Source: a virus
Virus record (IMG/VR): IMGVR_UViG_3300027806_000001
Span: 62,001-126,000 of that record
DNA: 64,000 bases
Strand: one strand, 5' to 3'
Below are positions 3,933 through 49,317 of the stretch, piece after piece. Position 1 is the first letter of the stretch, and each line of letters opens with the position of its first letter. The notes below the pieces were generated by a model that was given only the letters and a program-made list of their open reading frames with translations, made no database searches and was not told the DNA's origin. A program made the translations under genes and the position numbers.

Positions 3933-4250
3933 TCAGCTTCCTCCTTGGCCGTTGCCGTAGTCGTCGCCGGTGCCGTAGCCTGTGCCCCTGCCGTCGCCAT
4001 AACCCCTGCCGTTGCCCATGCCGTAGCCCTTGCCCCCACCGCAGCCGTTGCCGTTGCTGCCGCCGTTGCCCATGCCGCCGCCCCAGCCCATGCCGCTGCC
4101 GCTATCACAGCTGCCGCCCCAGCCGTAACCTCTGCCGGTGCCTTCGCCGCCGCCAATGCCATTGCCGCTGCCGTAGCCGCTGCCATCGCCGTCGCCGTAG
4201 CCGCTGCCGTTACCCCTATGGATGTCCCTCGTTTTGTCCTTGTAGCTCAT
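3933..4250 (-). CDS. GX-repeat glycine-rich protein 1 (105 aa)
   Basis: After a charged leader (MSYKDKTRDIHR) almost every second residue is glycine and the partners are N, S, Y, D, R, W, M, C, K, T. Period-2 glycine rules out collagen (GXY). The last codons (GQGGS) encode the AAGGAGG site of the next gene, and TGA is followed at once by ATG. First of 22 such genes in the window; function unknown. Confidence 0.85.
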   Translation of the reverse strand: MSYKDKTRDIHRGNGSGYGDGDGSGYGSGNGIGGGEGTGRGYGWGGSCDSGSGMGWGGGMGNGGSNGNGCGGGKGYGMGNGRGYGDGRGTGYGTGDDYGNGQGGS

Positions 4251-4637
4251 TCAATTTCCTCCTTGGCCGTTGCCGTAGCCCGCGCAGGTGCCGTAGCCTG
4301 TGCCCTTGCCCTTGCCGTCGCCTCTGCCGTGGCCGCCGCCGCAGCCGTCGCCGGAGCCGCTGCCGCCGCCGCAGCCGCCGCCGCTGCCATCCCAGCCGCT
4401 GCCCCAGCCGTAACCTCTGCCGGTGCCATCGCCGCGACCAATGCCGTACTTTAAGTTGCCTACACCGTAGCCCCTGCCGTCGCCGTAGCCGCTGTCCTGA
4501 TTGCTGCCCCAGCCTCCTCCTTTGCCGTTGCCGTCTCCGCGACCGGTGCCATTGCCGCAGCTGCCCCGGCCCTCACCTGTGCCGTTGCCGAATCCGGCGC
4601 CGCTGCCACAGCCGTAGCCACTGCCTTTGTCGCTCAT
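4251..4637 (-). CDS. GX-repeat glycine-rich protein 2 (128 aa)
   Basis: Starts MSDKGSGYGCGSG at an ATGA overlap with the upstream gene; a longer reading of the frame is arginine/proline shadow. Contains the block AGFGNGTGEG that recurs in the GX gene at 20278-20625. Ends GQGGN, again encoding the ribosome-binding site of the following GX gene. Cysteines and aromatics (Y, W, F) are spaced through the repeat. Confidence 0.85.
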   Translation of the reverse strand: MSDKGSGYGCGSGAGFGNGTGEGRGSCGNGTGRGDGNGKGGGWGSNQDSGYGDGRGYGVGNLKYGIGRGDGTGRGYGWGSGWDGSGGGCGGGSGSGDGCGGGHGRGDGKGKGTGYGTCAGYGNGQGGN

Positions 4638-9838: not shown

Positions 9839-10039
9839 CTAGTTCCCGTCGTCGACGGGACAGTCCAGATATTGGTCCAGCGCGTCCTTGATCTGGAGGT
9901 ACAGCGTGTCGCTCCGGGAGCCGACCGGAGGATCGTCCGGCACCAGCCCCTCGAGGACGAGCACGTTGTAAAGCGCGTTCGTCATGCGGTTCCTAATGGC
10001 GATGCGCTCGCGGTTGTTCAGCTTGATCAGATCCTTCAT
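9839..10039 (-). CDS. Hypothetical protein, 66 aa
   Basis: MKDLIKLNNRERIAIRNRMT suggests a helical N-terminus; the C-terminal half is acidic (YLQIKDALDQYLDCPVDDGN). It starts at a short overlap with the GX-repeat gene upstream, whose codons give GGGAGGGG as RBS. Function unknown. Confidence 0.65.
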   Translation of the reverse strand: MKDLIKLNNRERIAIRNRMTNALYNVLVLEGLVPDDPPVGSRSDTLYLQIKDALDQYLDCPVDDGN

Positions 10040-10287
10040 CCCCTCCCCCTGCCGTCGCCGCTGCCCGTGCCGCCGCCAGTGCCGCAGCCGTAACCGCCGC
10101 CGCAGCCGTCGCCCTTGCCGCCCGCCGTCACGCCGCCGGCGTTGCCGCCGCCCATGCCTCTGCCGTTGCCGTTGCCGCTGCCCTCGCCGCTGCCGTAGCC
10201 GCCGCCGGCGTTGCCGTAGCCGTAGCCCATGCCGTAGCCGTCTCCTCTTCCGCTGGCCGTTCCGCTGCCAGGTTGAATGCCGCTCAT
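10036..10287 (-). CDS. GX-repeat glycine-rich protein 3 (83 aa)
   Basis: Head MSGIQPGSGTASGRGDGYG, then GX alternation with a break at NAGGVTAGG. The phrase GSGEGSGNGNGRGMGGG is shared with the GX gene at 44956-45261, 34 kb away. Coupled by ATGA to the 74-aa gene upstream. Function unknown. Confidence 0.83.
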   Translation of the reverse strand: MSGIQPGSGTASGRGDGYGMGYGYGNAGGGYGSGEGSGNGNGRGMGGGNAGGVTAGGKGDGCGGGYGCGTGGGTGSGDGRGRG

Positions 10288-10508
10288 GCAGTCACCTCCT
10301 TGGGCTCTTCCTCGTCCTTGTAGATCTCGACCCTGTACTCCGTGCCCGTCTTCGTGACCTTGGTCGCGACGTCGTTCAGCCAGTCCGCATCCTCCTGCGC
10401 CTTGGCCCTGGAGTCGTAGATGCAGGGCTTGCCGACGCCCTCGTTGAGCAGGCCGCGGTCGTCCTTGTCCTTCATCAGGCGGACGCACCATCTGCGCTTG
10501 GCCTTCAT
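10284..10508 (-). CDS. Hypothetical protein between GX genes, 74 aa
   Basis: An ordinary small alpha/beta protein, MKAKRRWCVRLMKDKDDRGL..., ending EEEPKEVTA whose codons carry the GGAGGTGAC site of the next GX gene. It begins at a TGATG overlap with the GX gene at 10508-10873. It resembles short phage proteins that report on arguments such as IYDSRAKAQEDADWLN (DUF-type), but no family is certain. Confidence 0.7.
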   Translation of the reverse strand: MKAKRRWCVRLMKDKDDRGLLNEGVGKPCIYDSRAKAQEDADWLNDVATKVTKTGTEYRVEIYKDEEEPKEVTA

Positions 10509-10873
10509 CAGTCCCCCCTTCCGGCGCCGTTGCCGAAGCCTTGGCCGCAGCTCATGCCCCAGCCCCTGCCACTGCCGTTGCCGTTGCCGCCACCATAGGC
10601 AGTGCCGCAGCCGTAGCCGCCGCCGCCAGAGCCGACGCTGCAGCCATAATCACCGCCGTGGCCGTTTGCGCTGCCGTGGCCGAAGCCGCCGCCCCTGCCG
10701 CTGCCTTTGCCATCGCCCCAGCCGCTGCCATCGCCATAGCCCCTGCCGTTGCCGCTGCCACAGCCACTGCCGTAGCCATAGCCGGTGCCATCGCCCCAGC
10801 CGCTGCCGTAGCCGTTGCCCCTGCCGTCTCCCATGCCGCTGGCTGTTCCGTTGCTCTGTCGGTTGTCGCTCAT
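10508..10873 (-). CDS. GX-repeat glycine-rich protein 4 (121 aa)
   Basis: Head MSDNRQSNGTASGMGDG. Its N-terminal half (GYGYGSGCGSGNGRGYGDGS and flanks) matches the GX gene at 43996-44319 nearly base for base, except for one 24-bp unit duplicated there. First gene of its unit, just after a GC hairpin. Function unknown. Confidence 0.85.
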   Translation of the reverse strand: MSDNRQSNGTASGMGDGRGNGYGSGWGDGTGYGYGSGCGSGNGRGYGDGSGWGDGKGSGRGGGFGHGSANGHGGDYGCSVGSGGGGYGCGTAYGGGNGNGSGRGWGMSCGQGFGNGAGRGD

Positions 10874-17819: not shown

Positions 17820-18148
17820 TGCTTCCTGCCTTTCTTCTTGGTCTGCTTGGCCGCATTCTCGCGGCGGTGGATCTCGCTCCATAGACGTGGGCCGCCCGTC
17901 CAGGTCCTGCCCTGGAGCTCGATGTACGCATCCTCGATCAGGGCGGCCAGCTTGGGCGCGTTGCCGGTGAAGGTCTTGGCGTAGAAGTAGCCGTCCCAGT
18001 CGTAAAGAGTCATGCTGGCCGCGGCAATCCTGCGCTCTAGATCCTTGATGCGTTTCTGCGCCTTGAGCAGCTCCGAGGTCGCACACCCGCACGTCGCAGG
18101 CTTGGCCTTGGAGGATCCCGTCTTACGACTCTTTGCCTGCTTGCTCAT
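17816..18148 (-). CDS. Hypothetical protein with basic ends, 110 aa
   Basis: MSKQAKSRKTGSSKAKPATC has a CGC motif, then a coiled coil (LLKAQKRIKDLERRIAAASM) and a mixed domain with YDWDGYFYAKTFTG. Ends KQTKKKGRKQ, the same RBS-encoding tail as its neighbours. ATGA-coupled to the long GX array upstream. Confidence 0.7.
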   Translation of the reverse strand: MSKQAKSRKTGSSKAKPATCGCATSELLKAQKRIKDLERRIAAASMTLYDWDGYFYAKTFTGNAPKLAALIEDAYIELQGRTWTGGPRLWSEIHRRENAAKQTKKKGRKQ

Positions 18149-18447
18149 CCTGCCCCCTTTCCGTTGCCATCGCCATAGCCGTAGCCGCTGACGTAGCCAA
18201 AGCCATAGCCACTGCCGTAGCCGCAGCCTCTGCCGCAGCCGTAGCCTGTGCCATCGCTGCTGCCAGATCCAGTGCCACGGCCGTTGCCCCAGCCGTAGCC
18301 ACTGCCGGTGCCGTGGCCACTGCCCCTGCCATCGCCGAACTCGCCGCCGCACTTGCCGAAGCCTACGCCTCTGCCGGAGCCATCGCCCTCGCCGCAGCCA
18401 CTGCCGCTGCCGTCGCCATTGCAGTACTCGATGTTCTGCGTGCTCAT
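18145..18447 (-). CDS. GX-repeat glycine-rich protein 5 (100 aa)
   Basis: Head MSTQNIEYCNGDG; GX repeat rich in Tyr, Cys, Ser and Arg (CGYGSGYGFGYVSGYGYG). Ends DGNGKGAG, encoding GGAAAGGGGGCAGG plus ATGA for the next gene. Last member of an eight-gene GX array (18145-20696). Function unknown. Confidence 0.86.
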   Translation of the reverse strand: MSTQNIEYCNGDGSGSGCGEGDGSGRGVGFGKCGGEFGDGRGSGHGTGSGYGWGNGRGTGSGSSDGTGYGCGRGCGYGSGYGFGYVSGYGYGDGNGKGAG

Positions 18448-18764
18448 CCTGTCCCCCTTCCGTTGCCATCGCCCTCGCCCCTGCCGTAGCCCCTGCCGTA
18501 GCCTGTGCCGTTGCCCATGCCGCGGCCATAGCCAAAGTCGCCGCCTGCGCCGCCTACTCCGCCACCCACTCCGCTGCCATCGCCCCTGCCGTTACCCCAG
18601 CCTCTGCCGCAGCCGTAGCCTGTGCCATCGCCGTCGCCCCTGCCTTCCGCCCTGCCGCAGCCTGTACCGAGGTATTCGCGGTTGCCATGGCCCCAGCCCC
18701 AGCCGCTGCCGAAGCCTTGGCCGGCAATTGCTCCGCAGCCGTACTCGATCCTCTGCTTGCTCAT
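18444..18764 (-). CDS. GX-repeat glycine-rich protein 6 (106 aa)
   Basis: Head MSKQRIEYGCGAIAGQG, including the phrase NREYLGTG that interrupts the repeat; the following Gly-rich part holds VGGGVGGAGGDFGYG. ATGA overlaps on both sides. Function unknown. Confidence 0.86.
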   Translation of the reverse strand: MSKQRIEYGCGAIAGQGFGSGWGWGHGNREYLGTGCGRAEGRGDGDGTGYGCGRGWGNGRGDGSGVGGGVGGAGGDFGYGRGMGNGTGYGRGYGRGEGDGNGRGTG

Positions 18765-19162
18765 CCTGCCCCCTTTCTGCGGCCATTGCCCCAGCCGCGG
18801 GCCGTGCCGCAACCGTGACCTCTGCCCATGCCGTCGCCGTAGCCGCTGCCCTGGCCGTCTCCAGCAAAGAAGTACGGGCCGCCGCCGGAGCCCTGACCAT
18901 TGGTGTAGCTGGGGCCGAAGAAGCTTGTAGTGCCGTAGCCTGTGCCGTCGCCGCAGCCCTTGCCGTCGCCGTCTCCATAGCCATCGCCGCGGCCATCGCC
19001 ACCAAAGACAAAGCCATGCGCCGAGCCGTGGCCGTAGCCTGTGCCGTCGCCGCAGCCCTTGCCGCTGCCGCTGCCCCAGCCTGCGCCCCAGCCGTCGCCG
19101 TCCGCGTCGCCGCGGCCTGTGCCGAGGCTATTGCAGTTGCCTAAGTTGCGTTTCTTGCTCAT
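18761..19162 (-). CDS. GX-repeat glycine-rich protein 7 (133 aa)
   Basis: Head MSKKRNLGNCNSLGTGRG. Two islands break the repeat: GHGSAHGFVFGGDG and TTSFFGPSYTNGQGSGGGPY. The first lies in a 59-bp stretch (18982-19040) identical to one inside the GX gene at 43583-43999. ATGA-coupled to genes on both sides. Function unknown. Confidence 0.86.
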   Translation of the reverse strand: MSKKRNLGNCNSLGTGRGDADGDGWGAGWGSGSGKGCGDGTGYGHGSAHGFVFGGDGRGDGYGDGDGKGCGDGTGYGTTSFFGPSYTNGQGSGGGPYFFAGDGQGSGYGDGMGRGHGCGTARGWGNGRRKGAG

Positions 19163-19497
19163 CCTGCCCCCTCCCCGTTGCCGGCGCCCAGGGTTGCACC
19201 CCCGCCATTGCCAGTGCCGTTGCCGTTGCCCCTGCCGTTGCCCTGGGCTAAGCCGCCGGTCCAGTTCCGGCCATCGCCGTAGCCATAGCCGCCGCCAGTG
19301 CCGTAGCCGCCGCAGTTGCCGCCGCCGTAGCCGCTGCCACTGCCGTCGCCGTCGCCGCCGTAGCCGGTGCCGCGGCCTTGGCCGCGGCCGCAGCCCTCGC
19401 CGCTGCCGCTGCCCCTGCCCCAGCCTGCGCCCCAGCCGCTGCCGTCGCCATGGCCGGAGGCCGTGCCCTTGCCGTACTCGATGTTCTGCGTGCTCAT
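19159..19497 (-). CDS. GX-repeat glycine-rich protein 8 (112 aa)
   Basis: Head MSTQNIEYGKGTASGHGDG; the repeat includes RNWTGGLAQG and ends GGGATLGAGNGEGAG, a tail nearly shared with the next gene upstream (GETLGAGNGEGTG). Same cassette design with an embedded ribosome-binding site. Function unknown. Confidence 0.86.
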   Translation of the reverse strand: MSTQNIEYGKGTASGHGDGSGWGAGWGRGSGSGEGCGRGQGRGTGYGGDGDGSGSGYGGGNCGGYGTGGGYGYGDGRNWTGGLAQGNGRGNGNGTGNGGGATLGAGNGEGAG

Positions 19498-19856
19498 CCT
19501 GTTCCCTCCCCGTTGCCGGCGCCCAGGGTTTCACCATGGCCGCTGCCACTGCCCATGCCGTTGCCCTTGCCATCGCCCCTGCCGTCGCCGCCGCCGCAGC
19601 CGCTGCCACTGCCCATGCCGTTGCCCTTGCCATCGCCCCTGCCGTCGCCGCCGCCGCAGCCGTTGCCACGGCCTGAGCCGTCGCCACTGCCGTCGCCGAA
19701 CCCGGCGCTGCCGCCGCCGTAGTTGTTGCCATCTCCCCAGCACCGGCCGTAGCCTTGGCTATCGCCGCAGCCTGAGCCGCTGCCGTAGCCCCCGCCTCTG
19801 CCGCAACCGTGGCCGGAGGCCGTGCCGTAGCCGTACTCGATCCTCTGCTTGCTCAT
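19494..19856 (-). CDS. GX-repeat glycine-rich protein 9 (120 aa)
   Basis: Head MSKQRIEYGYGTASGHG. Contains a direct duplication of about 20 residues (GCGGGDGRGDGKGNGMGS twice in tandem), visible as a 60-bp repeat at about 19545-19665. This shows array growth by unequal exchange or slippage. Function unknown. Confidence 0.86.
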   Translation of the reverse strand: MSKQRIEYGYGTASGHGCGRGGGYGSGSGCGDSQGYGRCWGDGNNYGGGSAGFGDGSGDGSGRGNGCGGGDGRGDGKGNGMGSGSGCGGGDGRGDGKGNGMGSGSGHGETLGAGNGEGTG

Positions 19857-20281
19857 CCTGCCCCCTTTCCGTTGCCGTCGCCCATACCTCTCTGAAACCC
19901 GTGGCCATAGCCGCAGCCCCTGCCGTCGCCCTGGCCCCGGCCCCTGACCTGAGCCGACGGGCTACCGTAGGGAAACAGAAGCCCTCCGCAACCGTGACCT
20001 CTGCCCATGCCGTCGCCGTGACCTTGGCCGTAGTCCGGCTGACTGGACTTGACCGTCCTGACCAGAGGCCCGCAACCGTCGCCAGTTCCGTTGCCGTCGC
20101 CGTGGCCACTGCCCCAGGGGGAGTAGCCTTCGTCGCCGCCGTAGCCGTTGCCACAGCCGGCGGTCGACCTGCTCCTGCCGGTGCTCCAGCCCCGGCCTTT
20201 GCCATCGCCTTGGCCTGCGCCATCGCCAAAGCCGCTGCCGCGGCGTGCAAGCGCCTCGGCTGAAAATTCATCGTTGCTCAT
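19853..20281 (-). CDS. GX-repeat glycine-rich protein 10 (142 aa)
   Basis: The most diverged copy: head MSNDEFSAEALARRGSG, with non-GX islands (STGRSRSTAG, GPLVRTVKSSQPDYG, LLFPYGSPSAQVRG). It is still ATGA-coupled with an RBS-encoding GNGKGAG end. The islands could be functional loops or decaying repeat. Function unknown. Confidence 0.82.
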   Translation of the reverse strand: MSNDEFSAEALARRGSGFGDGAGQGDGKGRGWSTGRSRSTAGCGNGYGGDEGYSPWGSGHGDGNGTGDGCGPLVRTVKSSQPDYGQGHGDGMGRGHGCGGLLFPYGSPSAQVRGRGQGDGRGCGYGHGFQRGMGDGNGKGAG

Positions 20282-20625
20282 TTCTTCCCCTTTCCGTTGC
20301 CTCGACCTTGGCCGTTGCCGCTGCCGCAACCATCACCAGAGCCGTTGCCGTTGCCGTCACCGTTAGCGGTTCCGCTGCCGAAACCGAAGCCGCGGCCGTC
20401 GCCCATGCCGCAACAGCAACCACGGCCCATGCCATCGCCGCTGCCGCTGCAATAGCCGGAGCCGCTGCCGTTGCCGCTGCCGATGCCACTGCCGTTGCCA
20501 TAGCCCCAGCCGCTGCCAGTGCCGTTGCCGTAGCCCTCACCTGTGCCGTTGCCGAACCCGGCGCCGCTGCCACTGCCGTAGCCCCTGCCGCTGCCGTCGC
20601 CATAATCGATCCTCTGCGTGCTCAT
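20278..20625 (-). CDS. GX-repeat glycine-rich protein 11 (115 aa)
   Basis: Head MSTQRIDYGDGSGRG; a regular GX repeat with GAGFGNGTGEG (also in the gene at 4251-4637) and GYCSGSG (also in genes at 43583 and 44645). Ends GRGNGKGKK, encoding AAAGGGGAAG for the next start. Function unknown. Confidence 0.86.
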   Translation of the reverse strand: MSTQRIDYGDGSGRGYGSGSGAGFGNGTGEGYGNGTGSGWGYGNGSGIGSGNGSGSGYCSGSGDGMGRGCCCGMGDGRGFGFGSGTANGDGNGNGSGDGCGSGNGQGRGNGKGKK

Positions 20626-20888: not shown

Positions 20889-20889
20889 T

Positions 20890-20917
20890 ATTCTCACACG
20901 CGCGCCCCCGCTGTTTA
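20890..20917 (-). promoter_or_regulatory. Phage promoter TAAACA-N16-GAGAAT
   Basis: -35 at 20912-20917, -10 at 20890-20895 with TGT before it. The TAA is the helicase stop codon. Drives the zinc-ribbon/GX operon 18145-20827 and probably the genes beyond. Confidence 0.83.
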
Positions 20918-35700: not shown

Positions 35701-35883
35701 GGCGCCGGCGTAGTCGACGTCGGCGGCCTCGACCGTGTACCGGGAGTTGGACAGGGGGAACCTTGCGGCGACGGCCTTCCGGACGCCGTCCAGGATGTTC
35801 CGGCGGATCGTGGAGTAGTCGTCGAAGCGCCGCATCTCGGGCTGGGCGGGGGCCAGCAACGAGTTCAGGTCCTGGGGAGGCAT
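29779..35883 (-). CDS. Fused RNA polymerase beta / beta-prime (N-terminal part) with intein
   Basis: 2034 aa. Beta: GTFISNGSEYVV (118-129), FGFIDPVRTPESSSVGVDLR (557-576), GKNLRVAYTVW and NFEDGVVMS after the intein, GDKLVGRYGDKGVV (1356-1369) and FNPLALTSRVNPVQ (1391-1404). Beta-prime begins near 1594 with IQDPRDIDFRTGKAYDGGFF and reaches NADFDGDQM (1941-1949), the three metal-binding Asp of the catalytic loop. The beta-prime zinc-binding segment after KIFG is deleted. The protein stops ~85 residues past the active site, so bridge helix and trigger loop must lie in another gene, not in this window. An intein occupies 762-1168. A -10 box exactly 6 nt before ATG predicts a leaderless mRNA. Surrounding virion-like genes suggest a packaged (virion) RNA polymerase, as in phiKZ-type phages. 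Confidence 0.95.
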   Translation of the reverse strand: MPPQDLNSLLAPAQPEMRRFDDYSTIRRNILDGVRKAVAARFPLSNSRYTVEAADVDYAGAPEYTLKDQQKALMQGQSLYTPLRGHLVMKDNATGAVIDQTDKPVTLARVPYLTPRGTFISNGSEYVVTNQSRLLPGPFVRRRKSGEYEAHFNTLPGKGRGFRMALMPDTGKFVVEIGQSVAPAYPMFRALGVTDDELEKTWGKDLLASSKEGSAYDAGRIYERLTNEPSKDLDENTIYSGIRTALESTVLDPEVTRRTLGYRAKAASVPIRGTLRIDSEGYITVPSGLIDGVYYALRDSDKAPGIAKGDGRLTVIEADEIKKLRKVFRKDFEATCGSGRRFTYDLVKVLPPMSGEYCVEIECPELEQLRRSLLLDPKPRGGFRLSVGVKAAADLNTLMETKEAAPVEIGPMTPVDLTDDDFGKISGRTLLRASQKILNAQKGLEDQDDRDSLAYQKFLGPEDFFSERIEKDAGGILRTALFKATNRGNLEPLKNGVFTPALNGVLMGSGLGAPIEEVNPMEILDQNMRVIRTGEGGISSGAHGIPIDSRSVQPSHFGFIDPVRTPESSSVGVDLRLTVGAIKGTDGQLYSRLRDPRTGEVKPVPARQVTDSIVAFPGELAKAAKTGDMVRAMVGGEISYVDPKAVQFELPSHNAMFNVNSNLVPGVSGIKGGRLLMGSKYFTQALPVRDAESPLVQGLDSEDPEGRAYEEQLQSALAAVTAEKELGPGVVTAVDPDFVEVKHGKTKRRYETYNNFPFNRKCVKGSTKVWILRGDRRMHVRADQYAFAAGDLIRSIDPETCRSSWEPVTAFVELTNDRRMVQVRTRGGRTVVVTEDHSLVTMGEDGKLVPLYPDECVVGTTRLPVCAMDNPKDSVDKRDSHEWGLLAGIYLAEGHVPPSQPNMVILAVKDASRRAELEQLIVQLGLKPHDNKADAGKVSFTSSEVASWLVAEFGHGSAHKCPSERAFDRSEAFRHGLVAGYFAGDGCLHEDSNGAVQLEAWTTSRAMRDALIDLLSGLGVFSTVLSDRQLSSTNPNWADAYGLRVISTHLAKLDKWFLYSDRNLKLSSLRSSSYRTSVFEFIPLPAKSRQLVYAGFEHDVPMRAYKDASAGKVSRQNARGPFEAWAKSDVMWDIVEEVVEAPAEERVYDFTVANSHVFAVNCGLVIHNTFLHNTAMVKVGDQVQPGQLLAKSNYTDDKGRLAMGKNLRVAYTVWGDPELGGANFEDGVVMSKTAAEKMSSEHMYTIGYDSKDDYSADYSRFVSLFPGVYSQEQLKAIDAGSGVVKVGTMVNPGDPVILGVGERQGDTFGLVKRTRPAYSNRAQTWDHSQPGVVTDVTRTRSGWQVAIKSYKPMGVGDKLVGRYGDKGVVSAVVDDKDMPQDKDGNPYEIAFNPLALTSRVNPVQAVEAALGKIAVKTGVPYKLPAFVDESYIDMAQRELKKNGLTDTETLFDPRLGRNIEGIFTGNRYFMNLHHQAEKKLTARDLGGYSTEEAPVKGGEEGAKRISISDINALLAHGAIDVIKDARLVRGQKNDEYWRAVKMGTPVPAVNVPFVWDKFVSQLKGAGVNVERQGGAVNIYGMTGSDVKKLSGGEIQDPRDIDFRTGKAYDGGFFDDKIFGTNQSKFGHFPLAAKVVNPVMEDAVRSLMGFTKKDLERVISGEKVKGVDGMAGLEQRLGGMDLKAEAEMARKEIATARGQRRSNAISRLSYLEGMTKRNLKPSDFLWEDMPVLPPRFRPITDTGNMQMVADMNYLYKELFGMNRNLKDLQGELGQEASGKERLALYNMVKATVGLADPASAKLRQKNVNGLIRHILGSNPKFSMFQRKVLSSTVEGVGNAVITPDPSLDMDHVGVPEDMAYSVFRPYVVRALVASGASPLEAMKQVESRTPTANRALLAEMQRRPVMITRAPVLHKYNFMAARPVLTAGPTLRLSPSVVVGFNADFDGDQMRLHVPSTQAAVDEAYRKMLPSRNLLSAATFQAQPFIKNEFLYGLYLASRQKADKNVAKTFRTREDAIKAFNRGEVSATDTVRILE
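32380..33600 (-). mobile_element. LAGLIDADG intein in the beta part of the polymerase
   Basis: 407 aa, Cys1 (residue 762) to His-Asn (1167-1168) with Thr as +1 residue. Block A CVKGSTKVWI, block B VVVTEDHSLV, LAGLIDADG helices GLLAGIYLAEGH (884-895) and GLVAGYFAGDG (976-986), then VYDFTVANSHVFAVNCGLVI before HN. It splits the highly conserved FNRK / TFLHNTAMV region that precedes GDQVQPGQLLA. Splicing residues are all present, so both splicing and homing activities look intact. Confidence 0.93.
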
Positions 35884-41877: not shown

Positions 41878-42591
41878 ATGAACACGCGCGTCGACTACAG
41901 CCCCCTTCGCCAACATCTCATGGAGAAGACGGCCTTCCTGGGCGATCTGCTTGGATCAAGCAAGTACGAGCCGCAGATTCTGGAGGACGTACCGTCGATT
42001 GACGACTTCGATCCTATGACCCAGGACTACGAGCAGGCCCTGGACAAATACTGGAAGAGCCTGGGCTACTCGGACGTGCGGCGGCACGACTACGCCCCAT
42101 CAGGAACTCCGTACACCATGAAGGGCCCCGACGGCCGCTACTACGAGGCCGCCATGAACGAGGACCTGGGCAAGTGGGAGCTGACTCCCATGGGCGGTCC
42201 TCAGCACGACATGGCCGAGCACCCCGACGATCTGCCGGATACCTACAACCGCAAGGGTCCGAGCCTGGGCAGGGACAAGAACTCCATGGACTACAGCCTC
42301 CTTCGCCAGCACCTCATGGAGAAGATCGCAGCCTCTCCGGCCTGGACCAGGGCCGAGGGCAAGAACCCCGAGGGCGGCCTCAACGCCAAGGGCCGGGCCA
42401 GCTACAAGGCGCAGACGGGCGGCACCCTGCGTCCGCCGGTCACCAAGGATCGCGCCGACAAGAGCCCCAAGGACGCCAAGCGCCGGGCCAGCTTCTGCGC
42501 TCGAAGCGCAGGCCAGATGAAGATGTGGCCGGAGGCCGCCAAGGATCCGGAGAGTAGGCTCAGGAAGGCCCGCCGGGCCTGGGACTGCTGA
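41878..42591 (+). CDS. DUF6321-like protein with duplicated head motif, 237 aa
   Basis: Only plus-strand virion-area gene. Two copies of a head motif: VDYSPLRQHLMEKTAF at residue 5 and MDYSLLRQHLMEKIAA near 138. The C-terminal part (AEGKNPEGGLNAKGRASYKA, KRRASFCARSAGQMKMW, SRLRKARRAWDC) matches DUF6321, found in phage and marine viral proteins. An internal ATG before the second motif could yield a separate ~100-aa product. Ends before a bidirectional terminator. Leaderless start. Confidence 0.75.
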   Translation: MNTRVDYSPLRQHLMEKTAFLGDLLGSSKYEPQILEDVPSIDDFDPMTQDYEQALDKYWKSLGYSDVRRHDYAPSGTPYTMKGPDGRYYEAAMNEDLGKWELTPMGGPQHDMAEHPDDLPDTYNRKGPSLGRDKNSMDYSLLRQHLMEKIAASPAWTRAEGKNPEGGLNAKGRASYKAQTGGTLRPPVTKDRADKSPKDAKRRASFCARSAGQMKMWPEAAKDPESRLRKARRAWDC

Positions 42592-42600
42592 GCCTCCGAC

Positions 42601-42648
42601 AGCTAAAAGAAAGACCCTCGGTTTTGGCCGGGGGTCTTTCTTTTAGCT
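42601..42648. terminator. Bidirectional intrinsic terminator
   Basis: AGCTAAAAGAAAGACCC and its exact complement (17 bp each) flank a 14-nt loop; both strands end with CTTTCTTTTAGC. It separates the plus-strand gene from the GX array on the minus strand. Confidence 0.9.
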
Positions 42649-42671
42649 GCTCACTCTCACTCATCGCATGC

Positions 42672-42959
42672 TCATTCGGAGACTCCTTTGCCGTCGCCGC
42701 GGCCGCTGCCACCGCCCATGCCGCTGCCGCAGACGCTGCCGTAGCCCCAGCCTCTGCCATTGCCGTCGCCGCGGCCGCTGCCACCGCCCATGCCGCTGCC
42801 GCAGACGCTGCCGTAGCCCCAGCCTGTGCCGCTGCCATCGCCGCCGCCGCTGCCGCCGCTGCTGTGGTCCCAGCCTCTGCCGTCGCCGTTGCCTCTGCCG
42901 TTGCCGCCGCCCTTGCCCCTGCCATCGCCATCACCGTGGCCATTACCTGGGTTGCTCAT
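42672..42959 (-). CDS. GX-repeat glycine-rich protein 13 (95 aa)
   Basis: Head MSNPGNGHGDGDG. Carries an internal duplication (GWGYGSVCGSGMGGGSGRGD twice). Last copy of the second large GX array; after it the frame ends VSE with an ATGA into a 4-codon ORF and then the terminator. Function unknown. Confidence 0.86.
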   Translation of the reverse strand: MSNPGNGHGDGDGRGKGGGNGRGNGDGRGWDHSSGGSGGGDGSGTGWGYGSVCGSGMGGGSGRGDGNGRGWGYGSVCGSGMGGGSGRGDGKGVSE

Positions 42960-43240
42960 GATGAACCTCCTTCGCCGTTGCCACTGCCGTTGCCATCGCC
43001 GCTGCCGGCGCCGTCGCCGTAGCCCCTGCCGTTGCCGTAACCTTTGCCGTTGCCCCGGCCTTCGCCATCGCCGCCGCCGTTGCCGCTGCCCCAGCCTGTG
43101 CCGTGGCCGCAGCCTGTGCCGCGGCCTATGCCGTAGCCCATGCCGCTGCCCTCGCCGTCACCCGAGCCGCTGCTCCAGCCCTTGCCGTCCCCCATGCCGT
43201 TGCCCTCGCCCTCGCCATGGCCATTACCTGGGTTGCTCAT
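42956..43240 (-). CDS. GX-repeat glycine-rich protein 14 (94 aa)
   Basis: Head MSNPGNGHGEGEGNGMGDG, then a regular GX repeat with no interruptions longer than one residue. Ends GEGGSS, encoding GAAGGAGGTTCATC plus ATGA for the next gene. Function unknown. Confidence 0.86.
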   Translation of the reverse strand: MSNPGNGHGEGEGNGMGDGKGWSSGSGDGEGSGMGYGIGRGTGCGHGTGWGSGNGGGDGEGRGNGKGYGNGRGYGDGAGSGDGNGSGNGEGGSS

Positions 43241-43586
43241 TCGAAACCTCCTTCGGCATCCTCGAGTAGATCGGCTCGCGCAGCCTGAGGATGTAGTGGT
43301 CGCCCTCGCTCTGAGGCCCGACCTCCACGTCTATCATGGCCGCCTGCACCAGGTCGCACATCAGGGGGTGCACGTCCCTGAGGCGCAGCCTGAACATACC
43401 GGCCACGTCGCGCAGCTGGACGCCCGCCGGCCCCGCGGCCGACACCAGGGCCATCACGGCCTTCCTGCGGTCCGCCGAGCGCAGCAGCCGCCGGCCGGGG
43501 CCTGCCGCCTTGCGCCGGACCCTGTGCCGCTCGGCAAGCTGCTCGGCAAGCATGCGGAGCCTCGTGTCGATCGCCGGACCGCTCAT
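43224..43586 (-). CDS. Winged-helix-like protein inside a GX array, 120 aa
   Basis: Not glycine-rich. A basic N-terminal helix (LAERHRVRRKAAGPGRRLLR) is followed by a winged-helix-like unit (AVMALVSAAGPAGVQLRDVA, DLVQAAMIDVEVGPQ, HYILRLREP). The C-terminus (MPKEVSNEQPR) reads 17 nt into the next GX gene, set by its ribosome-binding site. The only ordinary protein in this array; a possible DNA-binding regulator. Confidence 0.72.
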   Translation of the reverse strand: MSGPAIDTRLRMLAEQLAERHRVRRKAAGPGRRLLRSADRRKAVMALVSAAGPAGVQLRDVAGMFRLRLRDVHPLMCDLVQAAMIDVEVGPQSEGDHYILRLREPIYSRMPKEVSNEQPR

Positions 43587-43999
43587 GCCGAGCCTCCTTT
43601 GCCGTTGCCCTTGCCGTTGCCGTAACCTTTGCCGTCGCCCCGGCCTTCGCCATCGCCGCGGCCATCGCCACCAAAGACAAAGCCATGCGCCGAGCCGTGG
43701 CCGTAGCCTTTGCCGTTGCCGTAGCCCCTGCCGCTACCGCTGCCATAGCCGCGGCCGTAACCCCTGCCGTTGCCGCTGCCGTCGCCATCACCGTGGCCCT
43801 CGCCGAAGCCGCTGCCGAGTCCATTGCCTGCGTTGCCATGGCCGCCGCCGTCACCCGTGCCATCGCCCCAGCCGCTGCCGTAGCCATGGCCGTCGCCCAT
43901 GCCGCTGCCGCGGCCGCTGCCTTCACCGCTGCCGCTGCAATAGCCGGAGCCGCTGCCGTTGCCCTCGCCGCTGCCGTTGCCGTTACCTGGGTTGCTCAT
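43583..43999 (-). CDS. GX-repeat glycine-rich protein 16 (138 aa)
   Basis: Head MSNPGNGNGSGEGNGSGSG. Contains GHGSAHGFVFGGDGRGDG on a 59-bp segment (43650-43708) identical to one in the GX gene 25 kb away at 18761-19162, plus HGNAGNGLGSGFG shared with the next gene. Longest GX copy in this array. Function unknown. Confidence 0.87.
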   Translation of the reverse strand: MSNPGNGNGSGEGNGSGSGYCSGSGEGSGRGSGMGDGHGYGSGWGDGTGDGGGHGNAGNGLGSGFGEGHGDGDGSGNGRGYGRGYGSGSGRGYGNGKGYGHGSAHGFVFGGDGRGDGEGRGDGKGYGNGKGNGKGGSA

Positions 44000-44319
44000 T
44001 CGGAACCTCCTTTGCCGTTGCCCACGCCGCTGACGCTGCCGAAGCCGCTGCCGAGTCCATTGCCTGCGTTGCCATGGCCGCTGCCGTAGCCCCCGCCGTC
44101 ACCCGTGCCATCGCCCCAGCCGCTGCCGCTGCCTTTGCCATCGCCCCAGCCGCTGCCATCGCCATAGCCCCTGCCGTTGCCGCTGCCATAGCCCCTGCCG
44201 TTGCCGCTGCCACAGCCACTGCCGTAGCCATAGCCGGTGCCATCGCCCCAGCCGCTGCCGTAGCCGTTGCCCCTGCCACAACCGTGGCCGTTGCCGTTGC
44301 CACTACCTGGGTCGCTCAT
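43996..44319 (-). CDS. GX-repeat glycine-rich protein 17 (107 aa)
   Basis: Head MSDPGSGNGNGHGCG. About 44127-44276 matches 10699-10824 in the GX gene at 10508, but with one extra 24-bp unit (GSGNGRGY repeated). Shares HGNAGNGLGSGFG with its neighbour. Function unknown. Confidence 0.87.
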   Translation of the reverse strand: MSDPGSGNGNGHGCGRGNGYGSGWGDGTGYGYGSGCGSGNGRGYGSGNGRGYGDGSGWGDGKGSGSGWGDGTGDGGGYGSGHGNAGNGLGSGFGSVSGVGNGKGGSE

Positions 44320-44648
44320 TCGGAACCTCCTTTGCCGTTGCCCCATCCGTAGCCGGTGCCCCATCCGTAGCCGGTGCCCCAGCCGCTGCCATCGCCGCTG
44401 CCGTTACCCCAGCCGGTGCCGTAGCCATAGCCGGTGCCATCGCCCCAGCCGATGCCATGGCCGTAGCCGTCGCCGCTGCCGTCGCCGTTGCCCCAGCCGT
44501 TGCCGCTGCCCGTGCCGCCGCCGTCGTTTTGGCCAAAACCGCCGCCGAAGCCCCTGCCGTCGCCATCGCCCCTGCCGCTGCCGTAGCCGCTGCCGCAGCC
44601 ATGGCCGCGGCCGCTGCCCTCACCCTGGCCGTTACCTGGGTTGCTCAT
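44316..44648 (-). CDS. GX-repeat glycine-rich protein 18 (110 aa)
   Basis: Head MSNPGNGQGEGSGRG. Unusually rich in Trp and Tyr toward the end (WGTGYGWGTGYGWGNG), encoded by three near-perfect 18-bp repeats at 44340-44385. Contains GFGGGFGQNDG, shared with the next gene. Function unknown. Confidence 0.86.
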   Translation of the reverse strand: MSNPGNGQGEGSGRGHGCGSGYGSGRGDGDGRGFGGGFGQNDGGGTGSGNGWGNGDGSGDGYGHGIGWGDGTGYGYGTGWGNGSGDGSGWGTGYGWGTGYGWGNGKGGSE

Positions 44649-44959
44649 TCGGAGCCTCCCTTGCCGTTGCCCATGCCGCCGCCAGTGCCGCAGCCGTAGC
44701 CGCCGCCGTCTCCTCTTCCGCCGCATTTGCCAAAGCCATGGCCGGTGCCGTCACCGAAGCCCTTACCTCTGCCGAAGCCCTTACCGTTGCCCCAGCCGCT
44801 GCCTTTGCCATCGCCCCAGCCGTAGCCGTCAGCGCTGCCCATGCCGCGGCCGCCGCCGTAGCCGCTGCAATAGCCGGAGCCGCTGCCGTCGTTTTGGCCA
44901 AAACCGCCGCCGAAGCCCCTGCCGCTGCCGTTGCCATTGCCACTACCTGGGTCGCTCAT
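44645..44959 (-). CDS. GX-repeat glycine-rich protein 19 (104 aa)
   Basis: Head MSDPGSGNGNGSGRGFGGGF, with QNDGSGSGYCSGYGG and Lys/Phe-rich KGFGRGKGFGDG. Shares blocks with GX proteins 11, 16 and 18. ATGA-coupled on both sides. Function unknown. Confidence 0.86.
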   Translation of the reverse strand: MSDPGSGNGNGSGRGFGGGFGQNDGSGSGYCSGYGGGRGMGSADGYGWGDGKGSGWGNGKGFGRGKGFGDGTGHGFGKCGGRGDGGGYGCGTGGGMGNGKGGSE

Positions 44960-45261
44960 TCGGAGCCTCCTTTGCCGTTGCCACTGCCGTCGCCGATGCC
45001 GTAGCCCTCGCCGAAGCCCTTGCCATTGCAGTAGCCCCAGCCGAAGCCCCAGCCACTGCCATCGCCGTAGCCTCTGCCGAAGCCATCGCCGCCGCCGCTG
45101 CCGCGGCCGTTGCCGAGGCCCTCGCCGTTGCCGCTGCCGCCGCCCATGCCTCTGCCGTTGCCGTTGCCGCTGCCCTCGCCGCTGCCGCTGCCCATGCCTC
45201 CGCCCCTGCCGTTGCCGTCGCCATCACCCTGGCCGCTACCTTGTAAGTAGTTACCCATCAT
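44956..45261 (-). CDS. GX-repeat glycine-rich protein 20 (101 aa)
   Basis: Head MMGNYLQGSGQGDGDGNG, different from the MSNPGNG heads, as expected for the first copy of the array. Contains NGNGRGMGGGSGNGEG, close to the GX gene at 10036. Overlaps the TM gene upstream by 11 nt. Function unknown. Confidence 0.85.
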   Translation of the reverse strand: MMGNYLQGSGQGDGDGNGRGGGMGSGSGEGSGNGNGRGMGGGSGNGEGLGNGRGSGGGDGFGRGYGDGSGWGFGWGYCNGKGFGEGYGIGDGSGNGKGGSE

Positions 45262-45463
45262 GCCTCCTCATGTGCCGAGCGTTGAGGAAGAGCAGGGCCA
45301 GCACCCAGATAACCGAGGCCAGACAGGCGGCCACCCACACGACGGTGACCCATCCGGGACTGTTGGCGCCGTCAGCCTTGAGGACCAGGTTGGTCAGGAG
45401 CCCACTCCCTGTGAGAACAAGGCACGACCGCGCCCAAATGTATTCGTACTTTCTGGTTTTCAT
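45251..45463 (-). CDS. Two-TM membrane protein, 70 aa
   Basis: Head MKTRKYEYIWARS, two hydrophobic segments (CLVLTGSGLLTNLVL, ~14-29; VTVVWVAACLASVIWVLALL, ~39-59) and a basic tail HMRRHDG. It precedes the GX array. Function unknown. Confidence 0.68.
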   Translation of the reverse strand: MKTRKYEYIWARSCLVLTGSGLLTNLVLKADGANSPGWVTVVWVAACLASVIWVLALLFLNARHMRRHDG

Positions 45464-46170
45464 GGCTTCTCCTTCACTTTCTCCAGCAGCTGCTGGTACC
45501 TGGCATGCGCCGAGGCAAGGCACGAGTGGTGCTCCGCGCTCAGGAGATGCGACAACTTCGCGTCGAAGCCGCACCTGTACCGGGCGGTTGTCTTGATACG
45601 CTGCGGGTCGCTCCCGTCGCGTGGCGCAGCTCGGACTGCCGACATGGATTCGATCAAGGATCCGCTGACGATCGTCGGCTGGGGTCCGGAGATGGTCATA
45701 CGGAACCCCGTCACCCAGCCGTTCCTGGACCAGACCTCTTCCGTCAGCTCCTCGGGCTTGGCCTCTTCCTCGCCTTCCAGGATCTTCCACCGGTCATGCC
45801 TGGGCTTCAGCAGCCACCAGGTGCTGCCCCAGAGGTAGCAGACCGTGCGCTCCTCCGTGCCTCCGAACGGCAGCTGCAAGGACGTCAGCCGCAGCTGCGG
45901 ATTGACAGACACCGACCACTCCTTCCTGTCGAAGACGATCGCCTGGTCCCCGATGTACCTGAGGGTCAACGTCTTGAAGACTAGCTTGCTGAAGGTGTCG
46001 TGGCAGGTGCCGACGACATCTCCGACCTTGAGCCCCCACTTGCGGGCATGCTCGGCGTCCGACCCGCGGTTGCCTGGCCTTTCGGTGGAAGCAGTTTCGG
46101 GAGCCGCCAGACGGACCGACTCGTAGCCCAGGTTGTGGAAAACCTTCTCAGCGCATTCTTCCGACCTCAT
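45460..46170 (-). CDS. Hypothetical protein, 236 aa
   Basis: Contains KWGLKVGDVVGTCHDTF, a phrase shared with the protein at 47796-48518 (TWGLKVGDVISGVERYT), and further WLLKPRHDRWKILEG. The C-terminus is a long helix (SCLASAHARYQQLLEKVKEK). The two proteins probably descend from one ancestor. No known domain. Confidence 0.7.
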   Translation of the reverse strand: MRSEECAEKVFHNLGYESVRLAAPETASTERPGNRGSDAEHARKWGLKVGDVVGTCHDTFSKLVFKTLTLRYIGDQAIVFDRKEWSVSVNPQLRLTSLQLPFGGTEERTVCYLWGSTWWLLKPRHDRWKILEGEEEAKPEELTEEVWSRNGWVTGFRMTISGPQPTIVSGSLIESMSAVRAAPRDGSDPQRIKTTARYRCGFDAKLSHLLSAEHHSCLASAHARYQQLLEKVKEKP

Positions 46171-46571
46171 TGTGCCTCCTGTCCGGCCGTCACGCCGTAG
46201 GTAAAGGTGCTGACCTTCATGTTTTTATTCTCGTCGATCTCGACGCTCCTGACGATCCTGCCCTCGGAATCGAACCGCTCCTCCTTGGAGGACAGCTCGA
46301 CGGCGTCCCTGCCCCACTCAGGGTCGCTGCGAATCAGCACGGCCTTCCTGCAGACCAGCCTTTCATCGCGGTCGTAGACCTCCGTGGTGGTCCACCTGCA
46401 ATGCAGCCCTGGACCCGGGGTCTTGCAGACCACTTCGCAACCGCCCAGGACATTCCAGGTCTCAGTTCGGTTCGCGCCCATGACCAGCCGGACATGCCCG
46501 TTGGGGTAGAGGACGATGCTCTCGCCCGGACGGTACTTGCAGTGCATTGTCCTGATCGCGTTATTGCTCAT
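46167..46571 (-). CDS. Hypothetical beta-rich protein, 134 aa
   Basis: Many short strands (RPGESIVLYPNGHVRLVMG, YDRDERLVCRKAVLI, DSEGRIVRSVEIDENKNM) give a beta-sandwich look, similar in style to the second half of the 47796-48518 protein (HARDGSCKTTSRYVDGDSL). Starts MSNNAIRTMH at an ATGA overlap. Function unknown. Confidence 0.7.
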   Translation of the reverse strand: MSNNAIRTMHCKYRPGESIVLYPNGHVRLVMGANRTETWNVLGGCEVVCKTPGPGLHCRWTTTEVYDRDERLVCRKAVLIRSDPEWGRDAVELSSKEERFDSEGRIVRSVEIDENKNMKVSTFTYGVTAGQEAQ

Positions 46572-46885
46572 TTGTCCTCCTTGGTTTGCTGTTTCTTAAA
46601 CAGGTGGTTCCAGCCTCTTTCGGCGGCGACACCTTCGGGCGTGTTCACTTCGTGTCCGGTTTCGTACCGCCGCATTGCATCGTCGTAGCAAATATCCTCC
46701 TGAGCCTCGTCGCGCTGCTCGATCGCGGCGGCAAGTTCGGCGCGGAGGTGTTCTACCTCGCGCATTCCCTGCCGCAGCATGTCGCCCTCACGGCTGTTGG
46801 GCCATGCGTAGGTTCCATCCGTCTGCGCATATGCGTGGTGCAGATTCAGGAGGAAAATCGACCCTGTCTGCTTGCCGTTGCTCAT
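46568..46885 (-). CDS. KEDR-tail family protein A, 105 aa
   Basis: Coiled-coil middle (LRAELAAAIEQRDEAQEDI) and C-terminus RGWNHLFKKQQTKEDK, matching the tails of two genes further upstream (GWGYLYNEQETKEDR; GWGYLYNQREAKEDR). The KEDR/K end is forced by AAGGAGGACA ribosome-binding sites, but the GWxxLY part is real homology. Function unknown. Confidence 0.72.
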   Translation of the reverse strand: MSNGKQTGSIFLLNLHHAYAQTDGTYAWPNSREGDMLRQGMREVEHLRAELAAAIEQRDEAQEDICYDDAMRRYETGHEVNTPEGVAAERGWNHLFKKQQTKEDK

Positions 46886-47190
46886 TCGGAACCTCCCTGG
46901 CCGTTGCCAAAGCCGAAGCGATAGCCATGGCCATAGCCATGGCCAACGCCATTGCCATGGTCGCCACCATAGGCGAGGCCGTAGCCGCAGCCATGGCCGC
47001 TGCCCCAGCCCCTGCCGTTTCCGCTGCCGCGACCAATGCCGTGACCAAAACCGTTGCCCTTGCCCTCGCCGTAACCCTCGGCATTGCCGCCGCCGTAGCC
47101 GCGGCGCCTGCCATCGCCGCTGCCTTGCGCAGTGCCGCCGCCGTAGCCGCTGCCGTCGCCGAAACCGGGGTCATTACTCGGGTTGCTCAT
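46882..47190 (-). CDS. GX-repeat glycine-rich protein 21 (102 aa)
   Basis: Head MSNPSNDPGFGDGSGYGGG. Includes GDGRRRGYGGGNAEGYGEG and a Tyr/His/Phe-rich end (GHGYGHGYRFGFG). Coupled to the KEDR-tail gene after it (GQGGSE encodes CAGGGAGGTTCCGA). Function unknown. Confidence 0.86.
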   Translation of the reverse strand: MSNPSNDPGFGDGSGYGGGTAQGSGDGRRRGYGGGNAEGYGEGKGNGFGHGIGRGSGNGRGWGSGHGCGYGLAYGGDHGNGVGHGYGHGYRFGFGNGQGGSE

Positions 47191-47498
47191 TAGGAACCTC
47201 CTTTGCCATTGCCCATGCCATTGCCCATGCCGCTGCCATAGCTGCTGCCGCTGCCATCGCCGTTGCCCTCGCCGTATCCATCGCCACTGCTACGGCCACG
47301 GCCGTGGCCGTAGCCCCCGCCGTTGCCGCAGCCGTTGCCTTCACCTTCGCCGTGGCCTCGGCCGTAGCCGCCTCCGCTGACATTACCATGGCCACTACCC
47401 CTGCCATCTCCAAAGCCGCCGCCGTTGCCCCTGCCCATGCCGTTGCCCCTGCCGTCACCACCACCATCGCCCCTACCTGGGTTGCCCGGGTTGCTCAT
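47190..47498 (-). CDS. GX-repeat glycine-rich protein 22 (102 aa)
   Basis: Head MSNPGNPGRGDGGGDGRG. Here the stop is TAA sharing one base with the following ATG (TAATG), a slight variation of the ATGA cassette. Gly/Arg/Asp-rich with NVSGGGYGRGHG. Function unknown. Confidence 0.86.
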   Translation of the reverse strand: MSNPGNPGRGDGGGDGRGNGMGRGNGGGFGDGRGSGHGNVSGGGYGRGHGEGEGNGCGNGGGYGHGRGRSSGDGYGEGNGDGSGSSYGSGMGNGMGNGKGGS

Positions 47499-47812
47499 TC
47501 GGAACCTCCTTTGCCGTTGCCGTAGCCATTACCCCGGCCATCGCCGTAGCCCCTGCCATCGCCGTGGCCTACGCCTATGCCTGCACCGTAGCCCTGACCG
47601 TAACCGCTGCCATTGCCGCTGCCACTGCCCCAGCCACCGCCATCGCAGCCCCTGACGATGCCATCGCCGCAGCCACTGCCGTTGCCATTGCCCTGGCCAT
47701 CGCCCCGGCCGTAGCCCCTGCCACCGCCCCAGCCGCCACCTGAGCCGCCTGCGCTGCCCTCGCCACAGCCTCGACCGTTGCCATTACCTTGGCCATTACC
47801 TGGGTTGCTCAT
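47495..47812 (-). CDS. GX-repeat glycine-rich protein 23 (105 aa)
   Basis: Head MSNPGNGQGNGNGRGCGEG, with one interruption DGIVRGCDGGGWG. First copy of the three-gene GX run; its start lies inside the end of the 240-aa gene upstream, which supplies GGAGGACAG as RBS. (This is the 22nd family gene; number 15 in the series is the non-GX gene at 43224.) Function unknown. Confidence 0.86.
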   Translation of the reverse strand: MSNPGNGQGNGNGRGCGEGSAGGSGGGWGGGRGYGRGDGQGNGNGSGCGDGIVRGCDGGGWGSGSGNGSGYGQGYGAGIGVGHGDGRGYGDGRGNGYGNGKGGSE

Positions 47813-48518
47813 CTGTCCTCCTGCTGCTTGATCGCTCCACCGTGGTGGTGGTGACGGAGTCCCCTACGGTGATGACCTCCTTGACCATCTTGTCGTCCCG
47901 GTCGAGCCAGGTCTCGATGGTGTTGCCGCTGATCGCGGCGATGGCCAGCTTCTGCGTGCTGAGCAGTTCGCCGGAGGGGGACCAGAGGCGGGTGGTCACC
48001 GTGGTGAGAGAATCCCCGTCCACGTATCTGGAGGTAGTCTTGCAGCTTCCATCCCGGGCGTGGAGATGCGTCGTTCCATTGGAATCCTCGAGCTCGACGT
48101 CGCCGTTCTCACGCAGGGTCACCTTGAGGACGCTCATGCCCCTGGCGTGGATGACGCGGTCCTTGGCCGGCTCCGCCTTCGGCTCCGGGATCCGCTCCAT
48201 GAGGCGCCAGTGCCTGCAGGACAGGGAGTACGACGAGGTCTCGGGACACGTTCTGCAGGCTTTGGAGTCCACGTCGTCGGCAAAGAAGTCGTACATCTGC
48301 TCCTCCCACAGCACGCACCTCAGCCCGATGTGCAGCACCCGCAGGAAGACGATGTTTCCTACGCCTTTGTCGCAGGCGGTGTAGCGCTCGACTCCGGAGA
48401 TCACGTCCCCTACCTTGAGCCCCCATGTCCTCGCGGTTGCTGCCGGAGGCTCCACCATGTCCCCCCGGCCCAGCTCCCGGACCACCCGGTAGCCGTTCAC
48501 TTCCTGGAAATCGCTCAT
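47796..48518 (-). CDS. Hypothetical protein, 240 aa
   Basis: N-terminal part with WGLKVGDVISGVERYTACDK (shared with the 45460 gene), a Cys pair (ACRTC), and a C-terminal beta-rich half (LTTVTTRLWSPSGELLSTQK, GDSVTTTTVERSSS). It looks like a fusion of the two neighbouring genes at 45460 and 46167, with the join near residue 110. RBS AAGGAGGACAG. Confidence 0.72.
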   Translation of the reverse strand: MSDFQEVNGYRVVRELGRGDMVEPPAATARTWGLKVGDVISGVERYTACDKGVGNIVFLRVLHIGLRCVLWEEQMYDFFADDVDSKACRTCPETSSYSLSCRHWRLMERIPEPKAEPAKDRVIHARGMSVLKVTLRENGDVELEDSNGTTHLHARDGSCKTTSRYVDGDSLTTVTTRLWSPSGELLSTQKLAIAAISGNTIETWLDRDDKMVKEVITVGDSVTTTTVERSSSRRTDEQPR

Positions 48519-49003
48519 CTGTCCTCCTTGGTTTCTTGTTCGTTGTACAGGTAGCCCCAGCCGCAGACTTCCGCGACCGACTCGGGAGTCGTGCACTCCA
48601 CCGTCTTCCCGTCGACTCGGCGGTACACGCCACCCATTCGCGCACACAGCTCGCAAACCCGGATCCGCGCCTCGTCGCGCTCCTTGACCGCGTCCAGGAG
48701 TTCCCTGCGCAGGACCAGGATCTCATCGGCCTGGCTCAGGCGCTCTTCGCCCTTCGGAGTTCCGTCCGGGTAGGCCCACTTGTGCCTTGTGGGGTAGTCG
48801 ACCAAGGAGCTCAGGTAGAGGATCCTGCCCTCTTTGGTCGGCTTCCAGATCCGCCTCCAGGCCCCGGTCTCGCCGTGAGACTGGTGGGAGCACGTGGCTA
48901 TGAAGCTCCAAGTACTGCTTCGGGGGTACTGCTCAAGCAGCCACCTGAGCGCAGGCTTGTCCTCCTCTGAAGAGTTTGACTCTATCTCCTTGATGATGCT
49001 CAT
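48515..49003 (-). CDS. KEDR-tail family protein B, 162 aa
   Basis: N-terminal globular region (PALRWLLEQYPRSSTWSFIA), a helix (LVLRRELLDAVKERDEARIR), Cys motif CELCARMGG, and the shared tail GWGYLYNEQETKEDR. Together with A and C it forms a local family that is fused to different N-termini. Function unknown. Confidence 0.72.
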   Translation of the reverse strand: MSIIKEIESNSSEEDKPALRWLLEQYPRSSTWSFIATCSHQSHGETGAWRRIWKPTKEGRILYLSSLVDYPTRHKWAYPDGTPKGEERLSQADEILVLRRELLDAVKERDEARIRVCELCARMGGVYRRVDGKTVECTTPESVAEVCGWGYLYNEQETKEDR

Positions 49004-49317
49004 CTGTCCTCCTTGGCTTCTCGCTGGTTGTACAGGTAGCCCCAGCCGCGGATCCTGGCGTGCCTGGCCGCGTCGTCGATGCTGCCGTTGGAGCTCAGCT
49101 CGCAGACCTCGATCCTGGCGTTGTCCCGCTCCTTGATCAGGGATTCCAGGTTGCGCAGGTGCTCCATTGCGACTTCGTGATGCTGCCTGTTCGCGCCCTT
49201 CATTGCGTCCAGCATCTCGGTGCGAGCCCGTTGCTCGCCCCGTACCGCCACGACGATGAAGATGGAGAACACGATCGAAGAGAAGACGATCGCCGCGCTG
49301 ATCATTGATTCAAACAT
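49000..49317 (-). CDS. KEDR-tail family protein C, membrane-anchored, 105 aa
   Basis: N-terminal membrane segment (MISAAIVFSSIVFSIFIVVA, ~5-24), coiled coil (HLRNLESLIKERDNARIEVC) and GWGYLYNQREAKEDR tail. The KERD-AR-I-VCEL phrase is shared with protein B. Anchors this family to the membrane. Confidence 0.72.
   Translation of the reverse strand: MFESMISAAIVFSSIVFSIFIVVAVRGEQRARTEMLDAMKGANRQHHEVAMEHLRNLESLIKERDNARIEVCELSSNGSIDDAARHARIRGWGYLYNQREAKEDR

Follow-up and report, generated by a model that had tools for sequence, protein, structure and literature searches.

Almost all genes of a glycine-X (GX) repeat family in a large phage carry, in their last codons, the Shine-Dalgarno (SD) site of the gene that follows, in overlapping gene pairs. 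Judged from sequence, it is likely that the stop-start junction between these genes is a DNA module, that the SD in this module is kept by selection, and that genes have been exchanged at the module.

The window (the whole stretch of DNA that was analysed, 64,000 nt) comprises bases 62001-126000 of a 183,468-base virus record. At 29779-35883 it encodes a fused RpoB-RpoC polymerase that carries a LAGLIDADG intein; the polymerase is ~70% identical, over the matched stretch, to that of six other uncultivated contigs and ~30% identical to that of Salmonella phage Arash and Vibrio phage D69. The GX array region is an accessory operon. Genes were called with our own codon-usage caller, run both with and without credit for SD sites; the tail-SD statistics (synonymous recoding, and the comparison of 51 coupled non-GX genes with 89 uncoupled genes) are from the SD-blind calls, so that start choice does not enter the tail-SD result. 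A promoter scan gave no hits.

GX genes and their junctions

At least 20 GX genes are present in the window, every one of them on the minus strand; elsewhere in the record there are none. The products are paralogous proteins, mostly of ~100 residues, made of Gly-X repeats with varied X residues. The overlap with the next start is -4 (ATGA) in 16 of 21 GX genes and -1 in two of 21. PHROGs gave no match for the two GX proteins tried, Pfam and PHROGs gave no match for the non-GX genes of the array, and literature searches yielded nothing relevant on Gly-X repeat gene arrays in phages. The presence of ~20 paralogous Gly-X genes in one phage is arguably stranger than the junctions themselves. Outside the main array, the GX genes lie as follows:

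3933..4637, minus strand: GX cluster of two genes; CAAGGAGGAARYTGA directly before ATG (gap 0)
10036..10873, minus strand: GX cluster of two genes with G-rich SD tails and a non-GX gene between them
18145..20625, minus strand: second GX cluster; mostly GAG/GTG tails, with the SD as AAGGGGG or GGGGAGGG
20622-20696: mini GX gene of 24 residues, SD tail kept, just upstream of the second GX cluster

C-terminal ends in these clusters are GAG, GTG, GQGGN and GRGRG. Further mini GX genes are present in a related contig, L003, at 8219-8323 (34 residues, SD tail kept) and at 8977-9055 (25 residues); the mini genes are perhaps collapsed copies. A strong hairpin-like inverted repeat (GGGAGGTCCTCCGC...GCGGAGGACCTCCC) is located at 20840-20900, just upstream of the second GX operon.

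The main array, at 42672-47812, holds ten GX genes, with tails that read NGKGGSE and a junction consisting of AAAGGAGGTTCCGA and then ATGA. The array and its surroundings comprise:

42600..42652, no strand: inverted repeat, a hairpin resembling a terminator, separating the array from convergent gene 41878-42591; also in L003; read directly, not returned by a simple scan
42672..42959, minus strand: GX, array end; tail GKGVSE, damaged SD GGAGT; a 4-codon ORF and the hairpin follow
42956..43240, minus strand: GX, tail GEGGSS (GAAGGAGGTTCATC then ATGA)
43224..43586, minus strand: non-GX; 3' end runs through a GX-type junction in a different frame (KEVSNEQPR); overlaps the next gene by 17 nt
43583..43999, minus strand: GX, tail GKGGSA; follower non-GX (coupled)
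43996..44319, minus strand: GX, tail GKGGSE
44316..44648, minus strand: GX, tail GKGGSE
44645..44959, minus strand: GX, tail GKGGSE (AAGGGAGGCTCCGA)
44956..45258, minus strand: GX, tail GKGGSE; 24-nt tail DNA recurs as the 3' end of the L003 ortholog of 43224
45251..45463, minus strand: small non-GX gene, looks membrane-like, not in L003
45460..46170, minus strand: non-GX; tail KVKEKP here, KVKEVPNERPR in L003
46167..46571, minus strand: non-GX; ribosome-binding site (RBS) from 46568 here, from a GX tail in L003
46568..46885, minus strand: inserted or lost gene, KEDK tail (AAGGAGGACAA then ATGA), boundaries at AATGAGCAA
46882..47190, minus strand: GX, tail GQGGSE; identical tail in L003 with another follower
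47190..47498, minus strand: GX, tail GGS, TAATG (-1) overlap, SD spacing unchanged
47495..47812, minus strand: GX, tail GKGGSE, first gene of the array
47796..48518, minus strand: non-GX; KEDR-type junction read in another frame (RRTDEQPR)
48515..49003, minus strand: non-GX, KEDR tail
49000..49317, minus strand: non-GX, KEDR tail

The 46568 protein shares 35% identity with the 48515 family, which also has a KEDR tail. On the plus strand, a 338-aa antisense ORF (43336-44352) is open across several GX genes and is probably a by-product of GGCNNC repeats. A preliminary description of this DNA had reported GX genes with Gly-rich tails running into ATGA, and these are as described: GGAGG is present in nine of the ten GX genes and GGAGT in the last (42672), and the GAG tails assigned to the array are found outside it, at 18145-20281.

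SD sites in tail codons

GGA accounts for 27 of 60 Gly codons (45%) in the last six codons of GX genes vs. 30 of 1000 (3%) in the bodies of the same genes (Fisher p=1.5e-21, for genes that are paralogs and not independent). Recoding of GX tails with synonymous codons at genome usage yields an SD in a mean of 1.6 of 16 tails, with a maximum of 6, vs. 11 of 16 observed. The SD-ATGA junction pattern AAGGAGGNNNCNAATGAGC (up to two mismatches) has 13 matches in the window vs. 0.19 expected from shuffles. Predicted anti-SD pairing averages -11.5 kcal/mol for followers of GX genes vs. -7.7 kcal/mol for starts after gaps of >15 nt (p=9e-6), and the start regions of GX followers are predicted to be no more structured than those of other genes; strong SDs with ordinary start-region structure would also allow independent initiation.

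AGGAG or GGAGG is also present in 23 of the 51 non-GX genes with an ATGA overlap vs. 14 of 89 uncoupled genes (p=0.0003). Synonymous recoding of the non-GX tails already gives 17 with an SD vs. the 23 observed; the non-GX signal lies mainly in the choice of amino acids, which is consistent with SD-shaped tails. The earlier proposal that C-terminal sequence is set by the RBS of the next gene thus holds in that SD demand shapes tail codons, as seen in GGA bias and recoding, but is not universal, since 28 of the 51 non-GX genes lack both motifs in SD-blind calls. In annotated-phage controls the tail-SD enrichment was not significant in D29 (5/22 vs. 3/22) or in T4 1-50 kb (0/9), indicating that a signal this strong is not a feature of every phage.

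GX genes at which coupling ends bear on the same point. Counted over both phages, all 13 coupled GX tails of this array type have an intact GGAGG, vs. neither of the two terminal ones (p=0.0095). Gene 42672, the only array gene with a broken core, still holds AAGGAG (AAAGGAGTC) and is followed by just the 4-codon ORF and the hairpin; the last L003 gene (8977-9055) has no SD tail. The preliminary description had reasoned that tails should not be conserved where no gene follows, and on this the two array ends differ, the damaged but retained AAGGAG of 42672 speaking against it and the last L003 gene speaking for it.

SD spacing and tail peptide

ATGA fixes the reading frame, so SD spacing modulo 3 determines the tail peptide, an arithmetic that matches the data: an SD at 6 nt reads as GG, an SD at 4 or 7 nt reads as KE (KG with GGGGG), and an SD at 5 or 8 nt reads as RR-type. 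GG is the register of the GX array and KE that of 18 of 26 non-GX genes; in the second GX cluster KE predominates, with GGGGG, preserving Gly alternation. At five gene ends the junction DNA is read in other frames, yielding peptides that include KEVSNEQPR, KEAPNEYLR and KEVPNERPR; because the same junction DNA is read in other frames, the unit is the DNA and not the peptide. The first 17 nt of GX genes (e.g. 47812 and 43240), ATGAGCAACCCAGGTAA, carry stops in both other frames (ATGA, GGTAA), so that an upstream gene in another frame terminates there, with NEQPR/DEQPR tails.

Three further tail families had been said to follow the same rule. KEDR tails before ATGA do so, as KEDR/KEDK at 48515, 49000 and 46568. 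KKKGRKK/Q tails are present in three genes (16897, 17514 and 17816), but these genes end in GTGA and not ATGA, with a weak SD (AAAGG). KKKEQA tails are present in two genes (23718 and 24422), but run on for 5-6 residues and overlap the next gene by 19 nt.

Gene content at junctions in a relative

Protein scans (45460, 39862, 47796 and RNAP) and DNA patterns (junction, GX tail and second-cluster head) found one relative with GX genes, L003, a 17.5-kb contig with ~86-95% DNA identity over the backbone and a shorter array. The searched contigs of the 70% RNAP relatives contain no GX genes; a further candidate, L022, matched the head pattern yet is without any GX gene. In one 70% relative, L018, two markers that are ~9.6 kb apart in the window are separated by ~1.1 kb, and by this comparison the array region is accessory.

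Between the window and L003, four differences coincide with gene ends. First, GX gene 46882 is followed by 46568 in the window and by the 46167 ortholog in L003, with an identical 46882 tail in both; 46568, which is absent from L003, begins and ends at AATGAGCAA, and the RBS of 46167 is GGAGGACAA in the window, where 46568 is present, vs. GGAGGTTCCGA in L003. Second, the 45460 tail is KVKEKP in the window, where a small gene follows, and KVKEVPNERPR in the L003 ortholog, where a GX gene follows; the two sequences diverge inside the SD, after GTGAAGGAG. Third, the 43224 ortholog in L003 ends AACGGCAAAGGAGGCTCCGAATGA, 24 nt identical to the tail of GX gene 44956 and read in another frame (TAKEAPNE). 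Fourth, the two phages have different genes upstream of 49310: L003 has a KRKEQKK tail that is coupled, whereas the start in the window is uncoupled. Three to four of the differences, a small number from one relative, fit gene gain or loss bounded at the repeated junction. The stretches shared at the boundaries are only ~9 nt, which would be too short to mislead the usual assemblers, making misassembly an unlikely source of the differences.

Since L003 is the only relative found to have GX genes, cassette movement rests on three or four events. The suggestions that tails vary with the identity of the follower, and that the genes are portable cassettes, each bringing the RBS of its follower, fare accordingly: the 45460 tail differs with its follower but the 46882 tail is identical with two followers, and gain or loss of 46568 swapped the RBS of 46167, in one relative and among few events.

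Alternative explanations

The GX genes could simply be recent tandem duplicates, with tails and heads copied together, an ordinary SD and nothing portable. Array members have near-identical heads (MSNPGNG) and tails (GKGGSE), absence of GX genes from the searched 70% relatives indicates that the family is probably young, and, the GX tails being paralogous, much of their uniformity may be descent. We nevertheless consider descent unlikely as the sole explanation. GX bodies diverged but GGAGG did not, and the bases beside it vary (AAA/AAG/CAG/GAA; GGT/GGC); the junction DNA recurs, in a different frame, in unrelated non-GX genes (43224; 45460 in L003); and sequence-distinct tails fill the same SD role before the follower, as GGAGG at 6 nt, AAGGGGG at 4 nt, GGGGAGGG at 7 nt and CAAGGAGG at gap 0. 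In 84,980 species genomes, DNA for GNGKGGSE-stop has one match, in the CRISPR Cmr operon of a Deltaproteobacteria MAG (L023), in which an unrelated RAMP gene ends GNGKGGSE and its AAAGGAGGTTCGGAATGA runs into the cmr5 start; GX ancestry is thus not required for the tail, which can arise at any ATGA preceded by an SD at 6 nt.

That the junction is mainly a recombination site, a short repeat with a secondary role in translation, is improbable: the structural differences between the window and L003 are indeed located at junctions, but boundary stretches have only ~9 nt in common, the junction sequence varies between clusters while the SD is kept, and the predicted SD pairing is unusually strong. 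Selection on the KGGSE peptide, e.g. as a recognition tag with the SD as by-product, would account for its constancy in most array genes but is highly improbable, because reading the same DNA in other frames gives KEVSNEQPR, KEAPNEYLR and KEVPNERPR, 47190 terminates a residue sooner but has the same SD spacing, proteins of the other GX clusters have GAG, GTG, GQGGN or GRGRG ends, and the GGA codon bias is synonymous.

Proposed mechanism and implications

We propose that the junction is a DNA module, roughly [AAGGAGG, 4-7 nt][ATGA][GCAAC...], in an accessory phage operon. The last codons of each gene would carry the SD of the next gene, the start of which would overlap the stop (ATGA), and the codon bias suggests that selection for follower translation maintains this SD. 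The comparison with L003 suggests that the boundaries of gene gain, loss and duplication lie inside the module, in which case any follower would inherit its RBS from whichever gene precedes it. Translation would then probably proceed by termination-reinitiation or SD-assisted entry, both established in other systems. More tentatively, and with less than even confidence, the stop-start junction may be the exchange point of an evolving gene array, leaving gene order and number free to vary; under this reading, GX heads with stops in both other frames, together with SD tails, would allow genes in different frames to be joined and still be translated.

If correct, the proposal would explain gene gain and loss in dense, overlapping phage operons, with the shared coding piece as an interchangeable part. 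C-terminal peptides in overlapping operons may reflect the RBS of a neighbour and not protein function, which calls for caution in identifying conserved C-terminal motifs.

Comparison with known systems

SD-bearing 3' ends are common at prokaryotic overlaps, and the coupling arrangement is therefore known biology. An SD is present in about half or more of overlapping pairs in 20 of 24 prokaryote groups, and removing such an SD often lowers reinitiation (PMC6728339); overlapping pairs with an intragenic SD and termination-reinitiation are described in PMC6728339 and PMC10666635 and reviewed in PMC12548453. The window phage shares with these pairs the -4 ATGA overlap and the SD in the 3' end of the upstream gene, and differs from them in having ~20 paralogous low-complexity genes, one repeated junction module, two frames, and gene-content differences at junctions. 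The cmr operon of L023 has a single junction, whereas junctions are repeated along the array in the window phage.

In ccdA-ccdB, the ccdB RBS lies inside ccdA codons 70-71, and in mutation tests codon substitutions in ccdA changed this RBS (PMC9555053). As in the window phage, C-terminal codons there are constrained by the RBS of the following gene, but ccdA-ccdB is a single pair, without array or cassette exchange. Start-Associated Sequences (SAS) of Cluster K mycobacteriophages are 13-bp GGGATAGGAGCCC elements, mostly in intergenic gaps of >50 bp (PMC3203893). SAS and window junctions are both repeated SD-bearing sequences beside starts of unrelated phage genes; the window repeat, however, is inside overlapping coding sequence and spans the stop, whereas SAS are mostly intergenic, and the SAS consensus has one match with two mismatches in the window vs. 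three expected by chance. Integron cassettes need an integrase beside the array and attC sites, and for the latter the overlapping genes of the window leave no intergenic room. The comparison suggests, as far as sequence can tell, that what is less usual here is not the coupling but the use of a single junction module by unrelated genes, in two frames, and the location of gene-content changes at this module.
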